From Acidobacteriaceae bacterium (lineage in GTDB: Bacteria > Acidobacteriota > Terriglobia > Terriglobales > Acidobacteriaceae), in assembly GCA_003152695.1 (NCBI GenBank), contig PMAT01000066.1, forward strand, positions 24,089 through 88,088: a DNA stretch of 64,000 bases. The letters run 5' to 3'. Each line of letters opens with the position of its first letter. Position 1 is the stretch's first letter. Both the position numbers and the translations under genes were made by a program. Of the stretch, positions 56,757 through 64,000 are shown piece after piece. Below the pieces are notes generated by a model, which was not told the DNA's origin, searched no databases, and was given only the letters and a program-made list of their open reading frames with translations.

Positions 56757-58331
56757 TCACTCCAGCCCCAACTCTTTCCACCGCTTCGTCACTTGAGCCT
56801 TCGTCCTTTCGTCCATCCTGATTTCGTCCGGCCACGGGCGCGTGAAGCCCTCGCTCGGCCACTTGCGCGTGGCGTCAACGCCCATCTTCGAGCCGAAGTC
56901 GGGCAGCCGCGAAGCGTGATCGAGCGAGTCCACCGGGCCGAGCGTGAACTGGATGTCGCGCTCGGGGTCGATGTTGTTCAGCACTTTGAGCGTAACGTCG
57001 GCGAGGTCCTGCACGTCCACGTCTTCATCCACCACCAGAATACATTTCGTGGACATCGCCTGCCCCAGCGACCATATCCCATTCATCACCTTGCGCGCCT
57101 GGCCGGGATACGACTTCTTGATCGAGACAATCATCAGGTTGTGAAAGATGCCTTCGACCGGCAGGTTTATGTCCACCAGCTCGGGAATGCTGACGCGCAT
57201 CAGCGGCAGGAAAATCCGCTCCACCGCTTTGCCCATCCACGCGTCCTCCATCGGTGGCTTGCCGACGATGGTGGTCGAATAGATCGGGTCCTTGCGGTGG
57301 GTGATGCAGGTAACGTGAAACACCGGGTAGAGATCTTGCGGCGTGTAGAAGCCGGTGTGGTCACCGAACGGTCCCTCCATACGCAGCTCGTCCAATAGCA
57401 CGTAGCCCTCGAGCACGATCTCCGAGGTGGCCGGCACTTCCAGGTCGACGGTTTCGCACTTCACCAATTCAACCGGCTTCTGCCGCAGGAATCCGGCAAT
57501 CATGTATTCCTCGACATCGGGAGGCGCGGGCACGATGGAGGAGAACATCATGGCCGGATCGGTGCCGATGGCGACGGCGACCTCCATTTTTCCTGCAACC
57601 TGCTTCCCTTCCGCCACTCGCGAGCCCCCACCTGAGCGCGCCATCATGTCCAAAGCTGCACTAACGGGATGCGCCTCGCCCGCCGCCGCGGCCCGGCGCA
57701 TCTGTTGACGGTAGTTCTCTGCTCCTTGCTTCTGGCGCTGCCAATGCATGCCGGCACTGCGCTCGTCGTACACCTGCAGGCGATAGATGCCGGCGTTGCG
57801 TTTCCCTGTCTTGGGATCTTTGGTGATCACCGAGGGCAACGTGATGAAGCGTCCTCCGTCCTGCGGCCAGCATTGCAGGATGGGAAAATCCAACAGCGAG
57901 AAATTGTCGCGCTTGATGACTTCCTTGCAGGGACCGCTGGAAACTTCTTTGGGGAAAAATCTGCCCATCTCCGCCAGCATGGGCAGCATTTTGATTTTGT
58001 CCAGCAGCCCTTGCGGAGACTTCACGTCCATGAAGTACTTGATCCGGTCGGCGACCTCATCGAGCGAATCCACGTCCAGCGCCAGCCTCATGCGCCGTTC
58101 GGAGCCGAACTGGTTAATCAGCAGCTTGGCCCCGGGATAACCCTTAACGTTTTCGAAAAGCAATGCCGGTCCGCCGGGACCAAGCTTGCCCCGAGGTCCC
58201 CATTTGGAGACCCGGTCCGTGATCTCGGCGATCTCAAGGACGGGATCAGCTTCTGCTTTAACGCGCTTCAACTCTCCCGCTTTGTCCAGCGCGGAGATCC
58301 AATCTCGCAGGTCGTAATAGGCCAAACCCAC
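56757..58331 (-). CDS. UbiD family decarboxylase
   Basis: A 524-residue cytoplasmic enzyme of the prenylated-FMN-dependent UbiD family. It shows YYDLRDWISALDKAGELKRV at the start, then NAGIYRLQVYDERSAGMHWQRQKQG with residues that bind prFMN and metal, and MEGPFGDHTGFYTP. It probably decarboxylates a quinone precursor (menaquinone via futalosine, or ubiquinone) or another aromatic acid. No UbiX partner gene is in the window. The stop is followed by the divergent unknown gene; the start is ATG at 58331. Confidence 0.9.
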   Translation of the reverse strand: MGLAYYDLRDWISALDKAGELKRVKAEADPVLEIAEITDRVSKWGPRGKLGPGGPALLFENVKGYPGAKLLINQFGSERRMRLALDVDSLDEVADRIKYFMDVKSPQGLLDKIKMLPMLAEMGRFFPKEVSSGPCKEVIKRDNFSLLDFPILQCWPQDGGRFITLPSVITKDPKTGKRNAGIYRLQVYDERSAGMHWQRQKQGAENYRQQMRRAAAAGEAHPVSAALDMMARSGGGSRVAEGKQVAGKMEVAVAIGTDPAMMFSSIVPAPPDVEEYMIAGFLRQKPVELVKCETVDLEVPATSEIVLEGYVLLDELRMEGPFGDHTGFYTPQDLYPVFHVTCITHRKDPIYSTTIVGKPPMEDAWMGKAVERIFLPLMRVSIPELVDINLPVEGIFHNLMIVSIKKSYPGQARKVMNGIWSLGQAMSTKCILVVDEDVDVQDLADVTLKVLNNIDPERDIQFTLGPVDSLDHASRLPDFGSKMGVDATRKWPSEGFTRPWPDEIRMDERTKAQVTKRWKELGLE

Positions 58332-58842
58332 CTCGCTTCAGTGGTCGCCGCAGCAAAGCGGCGAGACACTGTTGGTCGTTCAGGATTCGAGTAACTGACG
58401 ATTATAGTGGGCGACCAATCCAAGGCACTGCGCTGCTTGTGCGAGGTCTCTCTGGACGCCGGTTTTAATTGCTGCTGCCGCAAGTAACGGCACTTGTTTT
58501 TCACTAGCACCGAGGTGCCGCACCGATTCCTAAGCTAGCAAATTAATTGCCAACAATTTTCTTATTTCCCCTTGAATCTGTGCGGTCAATTGCATAGTCT
58601 TGAGAGTATTGGGGAGAGCGGCAGCGCAAGCCTTTTGTCGCTCATCGGTGTTCTCAGCAAGTAGTCCGATTTTGCGAAGATAGTTTTTGCTGTGAGAGTT
58701 TTCACCCGCTTCGGCCATCTCTGCAATCCTCATGCTTCCCGTGTGTCCCTCGCCGCAAGCACCAGAGAATACAAGGGACAAGAGGCAACGGGGGAACGCA
58801 ACCGAGAATCCACTCTTCTGACAAAGGAAGGTTACTATACAC
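58332..58842. other. Intergenic region with one doubtful small gene
   Basis: The 511 bases between the divergent ubiD-type and HgdB-like genes are less GC-rich in the middle. TGCCG and CGGCA at about 58482-58498 form a short hairpin followed by CTTGTTTTT on the plus strand, a weak terminator-like feature. Only the frame at 58530-58733 resembles a gene. Confidence 0.35.
58530..58733 (-). CDS. Doubtful small protein, unknown
   Basis: A 67-residue frame (a longer version extends to 58853) with a polar N-terminus and helical, Gln/Lys-rich C-terminal part (LPNTLKTMQLTAQIQGEIRKLL). The GAGG upstream of an internal ATG at 58718 could serve as a ribosome-binding site. Without a match this may be a chance frame. 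Confidence 0.25.
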   Translation of the reverse strand: MRIAEMAEAGENSHSKNYLRKIGLLAENTDERQKACAAALPNTLKTMQLTAQIQGEIRKLLAINLLA

Positions 58843-60669
58843 GTGACTCGCATCGATTTCCCCGTAGATGAATTGACGCTCCCTCACTCCGAAGAGGAGA
58901 TTCAGCGGAAGCTGGCCCAGGAACGCGCACGCCTGGCCAGCATGATGGGGCTCGATAGTGGCCCCGTCCACCACTTTCGTCGCCCCGCCGAGCGGCCCTT
59001 CACCGCGGAAGAGCGCGGCAAGGTGACCATTCTGTTCGGTGGCCTGACCTGGAAACACGAGCGCGTGATCCAGGCGGTGTTTGAAGGCTGCGGATACGGC
59101 TGCGAGATTCTGCCCGTGCCCAACGTCTCGGCGTTTCAACTGGGCAAGGAATACGGCAACAACGGTCAGTGCAATCCCACGTACTTCACGGTTGGCAACC
59201 TGGTGCAGTACCTCCAGGGCCTGCAAGCCCGCGGCATGACAAAGGACGAGATCATCAACAACCATGTCTTCTTTACCGCCGGCTCATGTGGTCCATGCCG
59301 CTTCGGCATGTACGAGTCGGAGTATCGCCTCGCTCTGCAAAACGCCGGCTTCGATGGCTTCCGAGTATTGCTCTTTCAGCAGAATGACGGCGTAAAGGCC
59401 GCCTCCGGCGAATCCGGGCTGAAGTTCACGGTGGACTTCGGCATGGGCATGTTCAATGCCCTTAACCTCGGCGACATCATGAACGAGATGATCTACCGCA
59501 TTCGTCCTTACGAAGTCGAGAAAGGCAAGACGGATGAAGTCTTCCAGTCGTCCATCGACACGCTGTGCACCCTGCTGCGCGAGCGCAAGCCGTTCGAGGA
59601 CCACGAAGACCTGCCGGAGTGGATGGCCAAGAAAGTACGCGCCAACAAGGGCAAGAAGTGGGAGATTTGGGTCAACTCCCTGGCCAAGGTTCGCGAGCAG
59701 CTTTACGGCAACCCGTACAAAGAGGCGCTGGCGGCTGTCCGCGAACAACTCGCCACCATCGAAGTCGATCGCCTGCGTGTCAAGCCGGTGGTCAAGATCA
59801 TTGGCGAGTTCTGGGCCCAGATCACCGAGGGCGACGGCAACTTCCATATGTTCGAGTTTCTGGAGGGTGAAGGCGCGCAGGTGCTGGTCGAGCCTATCGG
59901 GACCTGGGTGATGTACATGATGTATCAGGCCAAGGCGCGCGCCGCCGCCCGCCGGCCGCTCGACGCTCCCTACAAGAAAGTGAAGTGGTACGAGCTGCGC
60001 AAGATGGCGGTGAACGAGTTGAAGTTTCGCCGGAAGCAGTGGTTGTGGGGCGTAGGCGAGCGCGTCTATGCCCGCCAATATCATCGCGTGGTGGAGGGGC
60101 TGGGCAACATCGCGCACCATCTGGTGGACCAGAAGGAAATGGCCGCTATGGCCAATCCGTTCTACAACGAATTCGCCCGCGGCGGCGAAGGCCATCTTGA
60201 AGTCGGCAAGAACGTCTGGTACACCAAGAACCGTCTCTGCCACATGGTGCTGGCGTTGAAACCGTTCGGGTGCATGCCGTCGTCGCAGTCGGATGGCGTG
60301 CAGTCGGCTGTGGCCAACCACTTCAAGGAGATGATCTTCCTGCCCATCGAAACTTCGGGTGAGGGCGAGATCAATGCCCACAGCCGGGTGCAGATGGCCC
60401 TGGGTGAGGCCAAGGTCAAAGCTCGCATGGAGTTCGAGCAGGCGCTGAAGTCCACCGGCAAGCGGCTGGAGGACATCAAGGACTACGTGGCCAAACATCC
60501 GGAGTTGCGCAACTTGTTTTATCCGGTGCCGCACGTTCATGGATACGCCGGCGTGGCTGCGAATTTCGTGCTGCATGTCAACGATCTGATGAACGGCAAG
60601 AAACGCCTGGCGCGCGTGCCGGTGACTCCGCCGCAGAAACTGACGGTGGCCGCCGCGTATGGCGACTAG
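58843..60669 (+). CDS. HgdB-like / DUF2229 acyl-CoA dehydratase activase-related protein
   Basis: A 608-residue cytoplasmic protein that resembles the DUF2229 part of large CoA-dehydratase activase proteins and the HgdB fold. Cysteines C83, C87, C110 (NNGQCNPT), C149 and C152 (AGSCGPC) and one in KPFGCMPSS are placed as expected for an iron-sulfur cluster. It starts at GTG, with AAGGAAGG upstream at the same 11-base spacing as in the next gene. It leads a cluster with a radical SAM protein and an ATP-driven activase. Its substrate is not known. Confidence 0.85.
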   Translation: MTRIDFPVDELTLPHSEEEIQRKLAQERARLASMMGLDSGPVHHFRRPAERPFTAEERGKVTILFGGLTWKHERVIQAVFEGCGYGCEILPVPNVSAFQLGKEYGNNGQCNPTYFTVGNLVQYLQGLQARGMTKDEIINNHVFFTAGSCGPCRFGMYESEYRLALQNAGFDGFRVLLFQQNDGVKAASGESGLKFTVDFGMGMFNALNLGDIMNEMIYRIRPYEVEKGKTDEVFQSSIDTLCTLLRERKPFEDHEDLPEWMAKKVRANKGKKWEIWVNSLAKVREQLYGNPYKEALAAVREQLATIEVDRLRVKPVVKIIGEFWAQITEGDGNFHMFEFLEGEGAQVLVEPIGTWVMYMMYQAKARAAARRPLDAPYKKVKWYELRKMAVNELKFRRKQWLWGVGERVYARQYHRVVEGLGNIAHHLVDQKEMAAMANPFYNEFARGGEGHLEVGKNVWYTKNRLCHMVLALKPFGCMPSSQSDGVQSAVANHFKEMIFLPIETSGEGEINAHSRVQMALGEAKVKARMEFEQALKSTGKRLEDIKDYVAKHPELRNLFYPVPHVHGYAGVAANFVLHVNDLMNGKKRLARVPVTPPQKLTVAAAYGD

Positions 60670-60722
60670 TGATTGATTTTTCAGGTTGAACGATAAATAA
60701 AAGAAGGAAGGTCACTCTCTAC

Positions 60723-62024
60723 ATGCCGGAAGTGCAAGCACCGGAAGGTACGCAAGCTGCCCCGACTTATCGCCTGGATGTGCAGCTACACGACCTGCTC
60801 ATGAAGCCGCCCGAGCAGCCACGGCTGTTGCCACCGCCTTCGAGCGGCAAAGAGCAGAAGCTGCCGACGCCGGTTTTCCCGCAGTTTCCCGAGCTGATGT
60901 CGGCCGCGGACGAGGATTTCTTCCCCAACAACGGCCGTCGCAAATACAAAGTCAAGCACATTTACCGCGCGGCGAAAGGCTGGGCCTTTCCATTCTTCCG
61001 TTCGCGAATCATGCCGGGCGAGTTTCATCCCATCATTGCCTATCTGTTCAACGAGTGGAAATGCAACCTCGACTGCCACTACTGCTGGGCGTTCGACAAT
61101 AGCGTCCGCGGCATGACCGAGGATGTGGCCAGGCGCTCCATCGACTGGCTGCACGACACCGGATGCCGTGTGCTGGCGCTAATGGGCGGCGAGCCGCTCC
61201 TGCGTCCCGACCTCGCCCATAAGATCGTCTATTACGCCGCCAGAAAAGACTTCTGGATCTATCTGCCGACCAACGGACGGCTGATGCGGCCTGAGGTAAT
61301 CGACAAGTTGGCTGACGCCGGTGTCGCCACTTTCAACCTCGCGGTGGATGCCTGGGACGTTAAGCCGGGACTGCCGAAGGCGATGGTTCCCATCCGTTCG
61401 TACTTCGATTATCTGGTCAAAAAGCAGTACAAGTACGGCTACAGCGTCTTCCTCAACATCAACATCTGCCATAACAACATGGACGACGTTCGGCAGCTAA
61501 CGGAACTGGCGCACGACAGCGGCATCGCCACGGACTATCACATCTGTGAGTCACCCATGACCGAGCAGCCGCACTTCAAGCACCTGTACACCAACCCGAC
61601 GTTCATCCGCGAAGAAGACCATCCCATGGTGTGCGAGCTGGTCGACTGGCTGGTGGAAAAGCAGAAGTCCGGTTACCACATGGTGAATTCGGTGGAGCGG
61701 CTCTCGCAGATGAAAGAATTCATTCAAGGCGAACTGGAAGATTGGAACTGCCGCGCCGGACACAATTCGCTGATTATTCGCGTGGACGGCACGCTCGCGC
61801 CCTGCTTCCCCATGTATTCCGCCGGATATGACTGGGGAACTATCGAGAACCACAAGTTCGAAAGCAAGCAGTTGAAAGACATGAAGAAAGAGTGCCAGAA
61901 GAGCTGTTTCTCTACCCTGAACCATATCCTGGCGTTTTGCTATAACGATCAGCGGGTGATTCGCTGGTTGTTCACGCAGGCCAAGCGTGGCTTTCAGGGT
62001 GTTAGCGGGAACTTCGGCGACTAA
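60723..62024 (+). CDS. Radical SAM protein with C-terminal cysteine-rich (SPASM-like) region
   Basis: A 433-residue enzyme. The canonical CxxxCxxC motif is C114, C118, C121 (CNLDCHYC), followed by MGGEPLLRPD. C-terminal cysteines (WNCRAG, APCFPM, KKECQKSC, AFCYND) are placed as in SPASM/twitch auxiliary-cluster domains. Such enzymes use S-adenosylmethionine for radical chemistry on peptides or small molecules. No peptide-substrate gene is next to it. It lies 53 bases after the HgdB-like gene and 35 before the activase gene. Confidence 0.9.
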   Translation: MPEVQAPEGTQAAPTYRLDVQLHDLLMKPPEQPRLLPPPSSGKEQKLPTPVFPQFPELMSAADEDFFPNNGRRKYKVKHIYRAAKGWAFPFFRSRIMPGEFHPIIAYLFNEWKCNLDCHYCWAFDNSVRGMTEDVARRSIDWLHDTGCRVLALMGGEPLLRPDLAHKIVYYAARKDFWIYLPTNGRLMRPEVIDKLADAGVATFNLAVDAWDVKPGLPKAMVPIRSYFDYLVKKQYKYGYSVFLNINICHNNMDDVRQLTELAHDSGIATDYHICESPMTEQPHFKHLYTNPTFIREEDHPMVCELVDWLVEKQKSGYHMVNSVERLSQMKEFIQGELEDWNCRAGHNSLIIRVDGTLAPCFPMYSAGYDWGTIENHKFESKQLKDMKKECQKSCFSTLNHILAFCYNDQRVIRWLFTQAKRGFQGVSGNFGD

Positions 62025-62059
62025 GGTTTTTATCACCGGTTCGGGTTTTCGGAGGGTTA

Positions 62060-64000
62060 GTGGGTTCGCATTCTCACCAGCAAGGTTCGTGCAGTAATGG
62101 CGAACAGAAGGTTGACGTCCAACTGGACGCCCTTCTGGGCTCGCCGCCCGTTGAAGACTCGCTTCCCGCGCGCGTTCTGGCCCGTTCGCGCGAAGTGAAT
62201 GCGCAGTCGGGCTTCAAGGCTGTCTATACCGTCGGCATGGATGTTGGCTCGACGACGGTGAAGGCGGTCATTGTCAACGCCGAAACCGACCAGATCATCT
62301 GGCAGGACTACCAGCGTCACGAAACCAGGCAGCCGGAGAAATTGCTGGAATTCCTCAAGCGCATGGAGGAGGAAGTCGGCATTGCTCCGCACAACTGCCG
62401 CATCTTCATCACCGGTTCGGGTGGAGGGGCGCTGGCCAACCTGGTCGGCGCGAAGTTCGTGCAGGAAGTCACCGCAGTCTCGCTGGCGGTCGAAAAGCTG
62501 CACCCCGAAGTGAACTCGGTCATTGAGTTGGGCGGGCAGGATGCCAAGATCATCGTTTTCAAGGAAGACGGGAATACCGGCCGCAAGAAAAAAATCCCGT
62601 CGATGAACGACAAATGCGCGGGAGGCACGGGCGCCGTCATCGACAAGATCAACGCGAAGCTCAAGATTCCACCCGAAGAACTCTGCGATCAGGGCTACAC
62701 CGGCATCAAGCTGCATCCGGTCGCAGGCAAATGCGGTGTGTTTGCAGAAACCGACATCAACGGCCTACAGAAGCAAGGCATCCCGCCCGATCAGTTGATG
62801 GCTTCCCTATTCGACGCCATTGTTCTGCAGAACCTCACGGTCTTGACCCGCGGACATACTTTGCGGCCGCACGTGCTGCTGCTGGGAGGGCCGAATAGTT
62901 TCATCCGCGGAATGAAGGAAGCGTGGCAGCAGAACATTCCCCGCACCTGGGAAGAGCGCAAGGTCCAGCTTCCGGAAGGCGTCAAGCCGGAGGATCTGAT
63001 CAAGGTCCCAGAGAACGCACAGTATTTCGCAGCGCTGGGCGCAGTGGAATTCGGCAAGGACGAAGAGTCCGAAGTCGGAACCTACATGGGTACCGAGTGC
63101 CTGGAGGACTACATCTCGGTCGGCCGGCAAGCGGAGAAGGCGAAATCGGGCGCTGCTGGTTTGAGCGCTTCCGAGGAAGAACTCGCTGGCTTCAAGCAGA
63201 AGTACGCGGTCCCGAAGTTTGTCGGCGCGAAGTTCGGTGTCGGCGAGACGGTGCGCGGATTCGTCGGCCTTGACGGCGGTTCGACTTCGACAAAAGCTGT
63301 GCTGCTCTCAGAAACCGGCGACGTGCTCTGCAAGGCCTACCAACTGTCGGGTGGCAATCCCATCCAGGACACCATCGACATGTTCGTCGCGCTTCGCCAG
63401 CAGGTGGAGTCACAGGGAGCAACCCTGGAAGTGCTCGGGGTCGGCACCACCGGATATGCCAAGGACGTTTTGAAAGACGTGCTCAAGGCCGATGTTGCGC
63501 TGGTGGAAACCGTAGCGCACACCGAATCGGCCCTGAAGTTCTACAAGAATCCCCATGTCATCGTGGATGTCGGCGGCCAGGATATCAAGCTGATCGTGTT
63601 GAAGGACGGTCGCGTCAAGGACTTCAAACTCAACACCCAATGTTCGGCAGGAAACGGCTATTTTCTGCAAGGTACCGCCGAGTCGCTCGGCTACAAAGTG
63701 GAGGAGTACGCGGACATCGCTTTCTCCGCCAACACCATGCCGATCTTCGGCTACGGCTGCGCGGTGTTCATGCAGTCCGACATCGTGAACTTTCAGCGGC
63801 AGGGTTGGCGCGGCGAAGAGATCCTCGCCGGACTGGCGAACGTCCTGCCGAAAAATATCTTCCTCTATGTCGCGGGAATTCCGAACCTCGCGAAGTTGGG
63901 ATCGCGCTTCATCTTGCAGGGCGGCACGCAAAAGAACCTGGCTGCGGTCAAGTCGGAAGTCGATTTCATTCACTCGCACTTCCACGGTGTTGAGCACGAA
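62060..64000 (+). CDS. Two-domain ASKHA ATPase activase (BadF/BcrA/HgdC-type), 3' end outside the window
   Basis: From GTG 62060, after GGAGGG, 647 codons run off the window without a stop. Two tandem acyl-CoA dehydratase activase domains are visible. The first has MDVGSTTVKAV (from residue 60), C186 (DKCAGGTG) and C225 (GKCGVFAETD); the second has LDGGSTSTKAV, C528 (TQCSAGNG) and C567 (GCAVFMQSD). These cysteine pairs are the ligands of the bridging [4Fe-4S] cluster in HgdC. It would use ATP to push low-potential electrons to the HgdB-like partner. The first 59 residues are Ser/Gln-rich and not conserved. Confidence 0.9.
   Translation, partial: MGSHSHQQGSCSNGEQKVDVQLDALLGSPPVEDSLPARVLARSREVNAQSGFKAVYTVGMDVGSTTVKAVIVNAETDQIIWQDYQRHETRQPEKLLEFLKRMEEEVGIAPHNCRIFITGSGGGALANLVGAKFVQEVTAVSLAVEKLHPEVNSVIELGGQDAKIIVFKEDGNTGRKKKIPSMNDKCAGGTGAVIDKINAKLKIPPEELCDQGYTGIKLHPVAGKCGVFAETDINGLQKQGIPPDQLMASLFDAIVLQNLTVLTRGHTLRPHVLLLGGPNSFIRGMKEAWQQNIPRTWEERKVQLPEGVKPEDLIKVPENAQYFAALGAVEFGKDEESEVGTYMGTECLEDYISVGRQAEKAKSGAAGLSASEEELAGFKQKYAVPKFVGAKFGVGETVRGFVGLDGGSTSTKAVLLSETGDVLCKAYQLSGGNPIQDTIDMFVALRQQVESQGATLEVLGVGTTGYAKDVLKDVLKADVALVETVAHTESALKFYKNPHVIVDVGGQDIKLIVLKDGRVKDFKLNTQCSAGNGYFLQGTAESLGYKVEEYADIAFSANTMPIFGYGCAVFMQSDIVNFQRQGWRGEEILAGLANVLPKNIFLYVAGIPNLAKLGSRFILQGGTQKNLAAVKSEVDFIHSHFHGVEHE

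Follow-up and report, generated by a model that had tools for sequence, protein, structure and literature searches.

The last part of a 64,000-nucleotide stretch of contig PMAT01000066.1 from an Acidobacteriaceae bacterium (called the window here; G000:C27:24089-88088, on a contig that extends to 99423) carries three consecutive genes: gene 1 for a detached second reductase subunit, gene 2 for a radical SAM protein, and gene 3 for two activase domains followed by DUF2229. The explanation that we favour, with modest confidence, is that genes 1 and 3 together constitute a split glycerolipid ester-to-ether enzyme of the PlsA/PlsR type, similar to the glycerol ester reductase Ger, and that gene 2 acts on the same lipid chains. 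It builds on the gene content, domain order, conserved cysteines, clustering, co-occurrence and folds, all of which were observed here, and from these we infer the catalysis and the lipid substrate. Judged from the sequences, the reductase assignment of genes 1 and 3 is likely, and the lipid role of gene 2 is plausible.

Activases of the HgdC type deliver low-potential electrons to the cluster of a reductase at the expense of ATP. In the proposed mechanism, the tandem activases of gene 3 would use ATP hydrolysis to drive low-potential electrons, one at a time, into iron-sulfur reductase domains, namely gene 1 and the DUF2229 part of gene 3, and these would reduce the ester carbonyl of a glycerolipid to an alkyl or alkenyl ether. 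Gene 2 would most likely act on the same chains, for example by abstracting hydrogen for coupling, cross-linking, methylation or cyclisation, which is the least certain part of the scheme. The pathway product would be branched ether or tetraether lipids of the branched glycerol dialkyl glycerol tetraether (brGDGT) type, with the C-C coupling proper probably performed by a homologue of the tetraether synthase Tes that is encoded elsewhere in the genome.

A probable split reductase of genes 1 and 3

Gene 3 passes the end of the window by 1.7 kb, and its full product is a single protein of 1224 amino acids. Pfam recognises two PF01869 activase stretches at its start, in agreement with the two-domain HgdC-type activase named in an earlier preliminary description of the window, and then PF09989 (DUF2229) with 156 bits at residues 820-1049. 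The same description had taken the activase to be split from DUF2229 by the radical SAM gene. Both lie in gene 3, and the apparent split is an artefact of the window end because gene 3 continues into DUF2229 past that point. The activase cysteine pairs 186/225 and 528/567 are at least 93% conserved across 25 homologues. When compared to PlsA-like proteins, gene 3 is colinear with that of Haliovirga, which is itself uncharacterised (29.6% identity over 1122 columns, E 1.7e-147), and with that of Acetoanaerobium (28% identity over about 1100 residues); the cut-off used in the field for Ger is E <= 1e-30 together with an identity of at least 30% to a characterised Ger. Two activation domains are associated with Ger in PMC13274423, and gene 3 likewise has two. 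Plasmid-borne homologues carry the annotation acyl-CoA dehydratase activase / 2-hydroxyacyl-CoA dehydratase. A separate activase gene pair in the same genome (C69:54488-56625 of G000, L137) has a PF01869 score above that of gene 3 and is probably a true benzoyl-CoA reductase (BCR)-type or similar locus.

Gene 1 had been described as HgdB/DUF2229-like. The likeness to HgdB and BCR holds by fold, but gene 1 is not DUF2229, which it did not match; it gave no Pfam match even at E 1 and no NCBIfam match. A profile made from an alignment of 36 relatives matched residues 1020-1446, the C-terminal domain, of the fused PlsA-like protein of Haliovirga abyssi (1449 amino acids) at E 3e-34. Other fused PlsA-like proteins gave weaker matches to this profile, and nothing was matched when it was used for a sequence search of the PDB. 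For the AlphaFold model of gene 1, with a mean predicted local distance difference test score (pLDDT) of 81.8, the best fold is 6eno, a double-cubane cluster oxidoreductase (probability 1.00, E 2.9e-3), and the next matches are benzoyl-CoA reductase subunits; the E-values are weak, yet the top four matches belong to one superfamily. Cysteines 110, 149, 152 and 477 are invariant in the alignment of relatives and are plausible cluster ligands. Because the profile matches the PlsA-type C-terminal domain, gene 3 covers the rest and the fold is BCR/double-cubane-like, gene 1 corresponds to PlsR/Red2 as a separate protein that has taken the first position. Genes 1 and 3 therefore appear to be a split and reordered PlsA/PlsR-Ger-like module.

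The pairing of the two genes is conserved far beyond the window. A GTDB genome scan gave at least 555 relatives of gene 1, from which 80 named loci, nearly all in metagenome-assembled genomes (MAGs), were kept. Gene 3 lies downstream of gene 1 on the same strand in 76 of these 80 loci, and the remaining 4 stop at contig edges. In a sample of 396 Acidobacteriota genomes, strong gene 1 matches were found in 39 and DUF2229 matches in 90, and all mapped uncut loci have the order gene 1 then gene 3, or gene 1-gene 2-gene 3. The pair is also present in records of Neomarinimicrobiota, Poribacteria, Latescibacterota and Dadabacteria (L211, L222, L225, L227, L229, L230, L233 and L239). The two copies of gene 3 tested from these records have 65-66% identity to the gene 3 of the window, and such a high identity of the pair across phyla suggests transfer between them.

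The radical SAM protein of gene 2

By its motifs, gene 2 is a radical SAM core with a SPASM/twitch-like single-cluster extension. The preliminary description had called it a SPASM-like radical SAM enzyme; the radical SAM part is matched by PF04055 at E 1.6e-19, while the SPASM model of Pfam stays sub-threshold, at 17.2 bits against a cut-off of 21.5. Invariant across 20 homologues are C114xxxC118xxC121, GGE at 155-157 and Cys 343, 361, 391 and 395. The top NCBIfam match is PapB, with 62 bits against a cut-off of 340, and the best folds for the model (mean pLDDT 72) are SkfB, anSME and BlsE. When a membrane-binding helix was sought, the helix moments in gene 2 were not distinctive.

Tes was rejected as the identity of gene 2, as NF045702 is absent among its 25 best NCBIfam matches and 7tol aligns in the generic core only (34.9 bits). 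Gene 2 is probably not the membrane-spanning lipid synthase Mss either, because none of 59 Poribacteria genomes matched it at E <= 1e-20, in a search made without a positive control, versus the presence of Mss in 14 of 29 Poribacteria MAGs (PMC11868695); Mss is thus disfavoured, indirectly, by distribution. An operon for a ribosomally synthesised and post-translationally modified peptide (RiPP) with its precursor gene between the three genes was also rejected, given that the gaps, of 53 and 35 bases, are too small to hold one; distant precursors were not searched.

Gene 2 is an optional yet recurrent member of the module. It lies within 10 kb of the module in 22 of the 80 loci, always on the same strand; the position is between genes 1 and 3 in 4 of them, upstream in 13 and downstream in 5, and a few of the 22 copies are fragmented. 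The pair has no gene 2 nearby in the other 58 loci, and gene 2 was not found in 24 of the 39 Acidobacteriota genomes holding the pair. The module can do without gene 2, because most loci have genes 1 and 3 only. A tree of 46 gene 2 proteins places the module-linked copies, except that of G377, in one 28-member clade (100/100) together with 5 unlinked ones, and the arrangement with gene 2 between genes 1 and 3 forms one group (93/90).

Among the 396 Acidobacteriota genomes, gene 2 is present in 30. Gene 2 and DUF2229 occur together in 22 genomes against 6.8 expected (p 1e-9, with relatedness ignored), and when counted by genus in 12 against 4.9 expected (p 3e-4, with relatedness not fully corrected). 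Gene 2 and strong gene 1 occur together in 15 genomes against 3.0 expected, and gene 2 adjoins the module in 7 of these 15. The 22 same-strand loci and the 22 genomes indicate that the three genes cluster and co-occur beyond chance, which the preliminary description had proposed to check. In G337 (L125, G337:C7, 6900-11650), all three genes have frame breaks or partial deletions at one locus; they may have been lost together, or the breaks may be sequencing errors.

Tes and the membrane-lipid context

According to PMC12838417 and PMC13274423, PlsA-PlsR give vinyl-ether lipids (plasmalogens) and Ger gives alkyl ethers, both by heterologous expression. The radical SAM enzyme Tes and the Tes-like Mss perform chain coupling (PMC8941075, PMC13274423), and homologues of PlsAR and Tes have been proposed for brGDGT synthesis in Solibacter usitatus (PMC10087280).

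The genome of the window has a Tes homologue at C100:124702-125877 (about 8700-9880 of L157), which matches PDB 7tol at E 1.8e-99 and NF045702 with 408 bits over its readable part. Its radical SAM motif is broken by two N in the assembly, and therefore the open reading frame (ORF) looks shifted upstream of the motif. Strong Tes, for which a cut of E <= 1e-100 was picked after the list was seen, occurs with DUF2229 in 29 of 36 genomes against 8.2 expected, with relatedness not fully corrected. G377 (L107) has a same-strand run of genes in the order Tes-like gene, gene 2, TetR gene, gene 1, gene 3, and L218 and L240 also have Tes-like genes near the module. Another PlsA/PlsR-like type (about 1040 amino acids plus a second reductase) was found at G203:C20:58674-63708 and G330:C59:774-5695, and in both genomes strong Tes lies within about 3 kb of these other PlsA-like genes on the same strand. 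In several loci a TetR gene precedes gene 1, and it is similar to FadR, a regulator of fatty-acid genes, with a score below the FadR cut-off.

Weighing the explanations

Several observations weigh against a lipid ester-to-ether enzyme with gene 2 as its partner. Gene 3 is less than 30% and gene 1 about 22% identical to PlsA-like proteins, and therefore the substrate could differ; in addition, PMC13274423 describes Ger and PlsA as indistinguishable by primary sequence. The co-occurrence of strong Tes and gene 2 is not significant (5 against 2.7 expected). Half of the gene 2-bearing genomes lack this gene 1-gene 3 type, several of them lack any DUF2229, and the stand-alone copies of gene 2 have unremarkable surroundings with no recurring partner among their neighbours. 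The f24/g40 genomes (G106, G133, G150, G166, G174 and G236) have a distant gene 2 subfamily, of 44-47% identity, alongside a fused DUF2229 protein of about 1450-1700 amino acids, and for the f24 genomes no Tes match at E <= 1e-40 was found among the matches listed.

The modest identity to PlsA-like proteins would also suit an ATP-driven reductase or dehydratase of the BCR/2-hydroxyacyl-CoA dehydratase superfamily whose substrate is not a glycerolipid but an acyl-CoA or a small molecule, with gene 2 modifying that substrate, and so would the double-cubane and benzoyl-CoA reductase folds found for gene 1. We consider this rather unlikely. The order activase-activase-DUF2229-Red2 is that of the PlsA type and not of HgdABC or BCR, the activase pair at C69:54488-56625 is a better candidate for CoA-thioester chemistry, and no HgdA, CoA-transferase or acyl-CoA gene adjoins the cluster among the downstream ORFs read by eye. 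The activase itself had been suggested in the preliminary description to power the radical SAM enzyme. Their physical clustering in a subset of loci is consistent with such an electron flow, but the activase and DUF2229 form one protein whose constant partner is gene 1, gene 2 is missing from most loci, and several copies of gene 2 are in genomes without DUF2229. Genes 1 and 3 are an obligate pair, and because most modules have no gene 2, the activase most likely serves gene 1 and DUF2229; electron supply from gene 3 to the radical SAM enzyme is thus extremely improbable.

As for gene 2 itself, we propose tentatively, as something possible but doubtful, that it represents a new radical SAM family that modifies lipid tails and operates together with a reordered split Ger in Acidobacteriota, and that it supplies a missing brGDGT step. 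The chemistry of such a family may be chain cross-linking, C5/C6 methylation, ring formation or coupling. Its nearest curated models and folds, PapB, SkfB and anSME, are peptide-modifying SPASM enzymes, from which gene 2 could be seen as a RiPP peptide maturase, or as a factor that matures genes 1 and 3, with no role in lipids; every score is nevertheless far under the curated cut-off, as illustrated by PapB, the gaps on both sides of gene 2 are too short for a precursor gene, and gene 2 is not needed to mature genes 1 and 3 because most modules do without it. This makes a maturase quite unlikely. We find it very unlikely that gene 2 couples the chains, as a functional Mss or Tes that is the direct partner of genes 1 and 3. 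The radical SAM core common to gene 2 and Tes, the linkage of gene 2 to the module and the known chemistry of Tes and Mss cited above all speak for it, but the likeness to Tes is confined to the generic core, the genome has a real Tes homologue, and the distribution of gene 2 in Poribacteria is unlike that of Mss.

Layout and surroundings of the cluster

The coordinates of the cluster are summarized in Table 1. From the ORF list of the window, genes 1, 2 and 3 are all on the plus strand with gaps of 53 and 35 bases, and the three same-direction genes with short gaps of the preliminary description were thus confirmed. Its statement that genes 1 and 2 share a ribosome-binding site at equal spacing is also correct: AAGGAAGG-N11-start has 2 matches in the window, precisely before these two genes, where 0.07 are expected.

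Table 1. Positions of the cluster features, numbered from the first base of the window unless stated otherwise.
Feature	Position	Strand	Remark
AAGGAAGG ribosome-binding site, gene 1	58824..58831	+	11 nt upstream of GTG 58843
Gene 1, detached second reductase subunit (PlsR/Red2-like, HgdB/BCR fold), 608 amino acids	58843..60669	+	family hidden Markov model, fold match
AAGGAAGG ribosome-binding site, gene 2	60704..60711	+	11 nt upstream of ATG 60723
Gene 2, radical SAM protein with one auxiliary-cluster-like C-terminal motif, 433 amino acids	60723..62024	+	Pfam, alignment, fold
Radical SAM motif C114xxxC118xxC121 of gene 2	61062..61085	+	invariant in 20 homologues
Region of gene 2 with invariant Cys 343, 361, 391, 395 (likely auxiliary [4Fe-4S] ligands, SPASM/twitch-like)	61749..61907	+	
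Gene 3, codons 1-647 of 1224, two HgdC-type activase domains	62060..64000	+	open at window end
Activase domain 1 (PF01869)	62231..62893 (C27:86319-86981)	+	
Activase domain 2 (PF01869)	63263..64000, past window end (C27:87351-88139)	+	
End of gene 3, with DUF2229	window-equivalent 65734 (L002:6923)	+	contig beyond window

The surrounding ORFs were read by eye. Divergent from the cluster is an ORF at 56757-58331 on the minus strand, which is UbiD-family decarboxylase-like. Downstream of gene 3 there are a nucleotidyltransferase-like ORF (convergent), an LpxD-like acyltransferase, a response-regulator-like ORF and an aldo-keto-reductase-like ORF. No HgdA, CoA-transferase, acyl-CoA or obvious peptide gene was seen over the 9.6 kb that follow gene 3, nor was a standard hydroxyacyl-CoA dehydratase locus, which is in line with the preliminary description. 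In other loci (L097, L100-L102, L103, L125 and L155), an FhlA/NifA-like sigma-54 activator that contains GAF domains is found repeatedly next to the module or gene 2.

Significance

Branched tetraether lipids in soils are a main proxy for past temperature and pH. The Acidobacteriota are the best-supported source of brGDGT, with Edaphobacter aggregans and Solibacter usitatus as positive strains and A. capsulatus and K. versatilis as strains for which no brGDGTs are reported. The pathway in this phylum is called unclear in the cited papers. The cluster joins a PlsA/Ger-like reductase, and in some genomes a Tes-like gene, to a radical SAM enzyme without an assigned reaction. As a conserved cluster, it provides specific genes for pathway study and a genomic marker of ether-lipid potential in uncultured soil bacteria.

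Comparison with known systems

The preliminary description knew of no described system with this layout. The closest one is the PlsA-PlsR/Ger family, which it had not considered. The plasmalogen synthase PlsA-PlsR of Clostridium perfringens, fused in Enterococcus and Lactococcus, has the same two activase domains and first and second reductase domains as the module of the window, and like it can take a two-gene form. In the module of the window, however, the second reductase, gene 1, comes ahead of the first part, the two proteins are longer, and there may be an inserted radical SAM gene. Ger of Thermotoga maritima and Desulfatibacillum, compared here by description, is a PlsA-like protein that carries PF01869 twice (architecture 'BB') and is linked to alkyl ethers, and gene 3 has the same two domains; unlike the module of the window, Ger is described in the available part of PMC13274423 as a single PlsA-like protein, with no radical SAM partner reported there.

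In fold, gene 1 is like the double-cubane cluster protein, benzoyl-CoA reductase and 2-hydroxyacyl-CoA dehydratase, a family whose activase mechanism the module would also share. In contrast to this family, the cluster of the window has no HgdB Pfam match, no HgdA/HgdB pair and no CoA-linked genes nearby. Gene 2 resembles the SPASM/twitch enzymes PapB, SkfB, anSME and HpnH in the CxxxCxxC motif, the GGEP-type motif and the C-terminal auxiliary-cluster cysteines, but it is set apart from these families by scores far under all curated cut-offs and by conserved residues of its own family. Finally, while the proposal for Solibacter usitatus (PMC10087280) has no counterpart of gene 2 and names GrsA/B homologues for the rings, it concerns the same phylum and places the same pairing of reductase and Tes in one genome.

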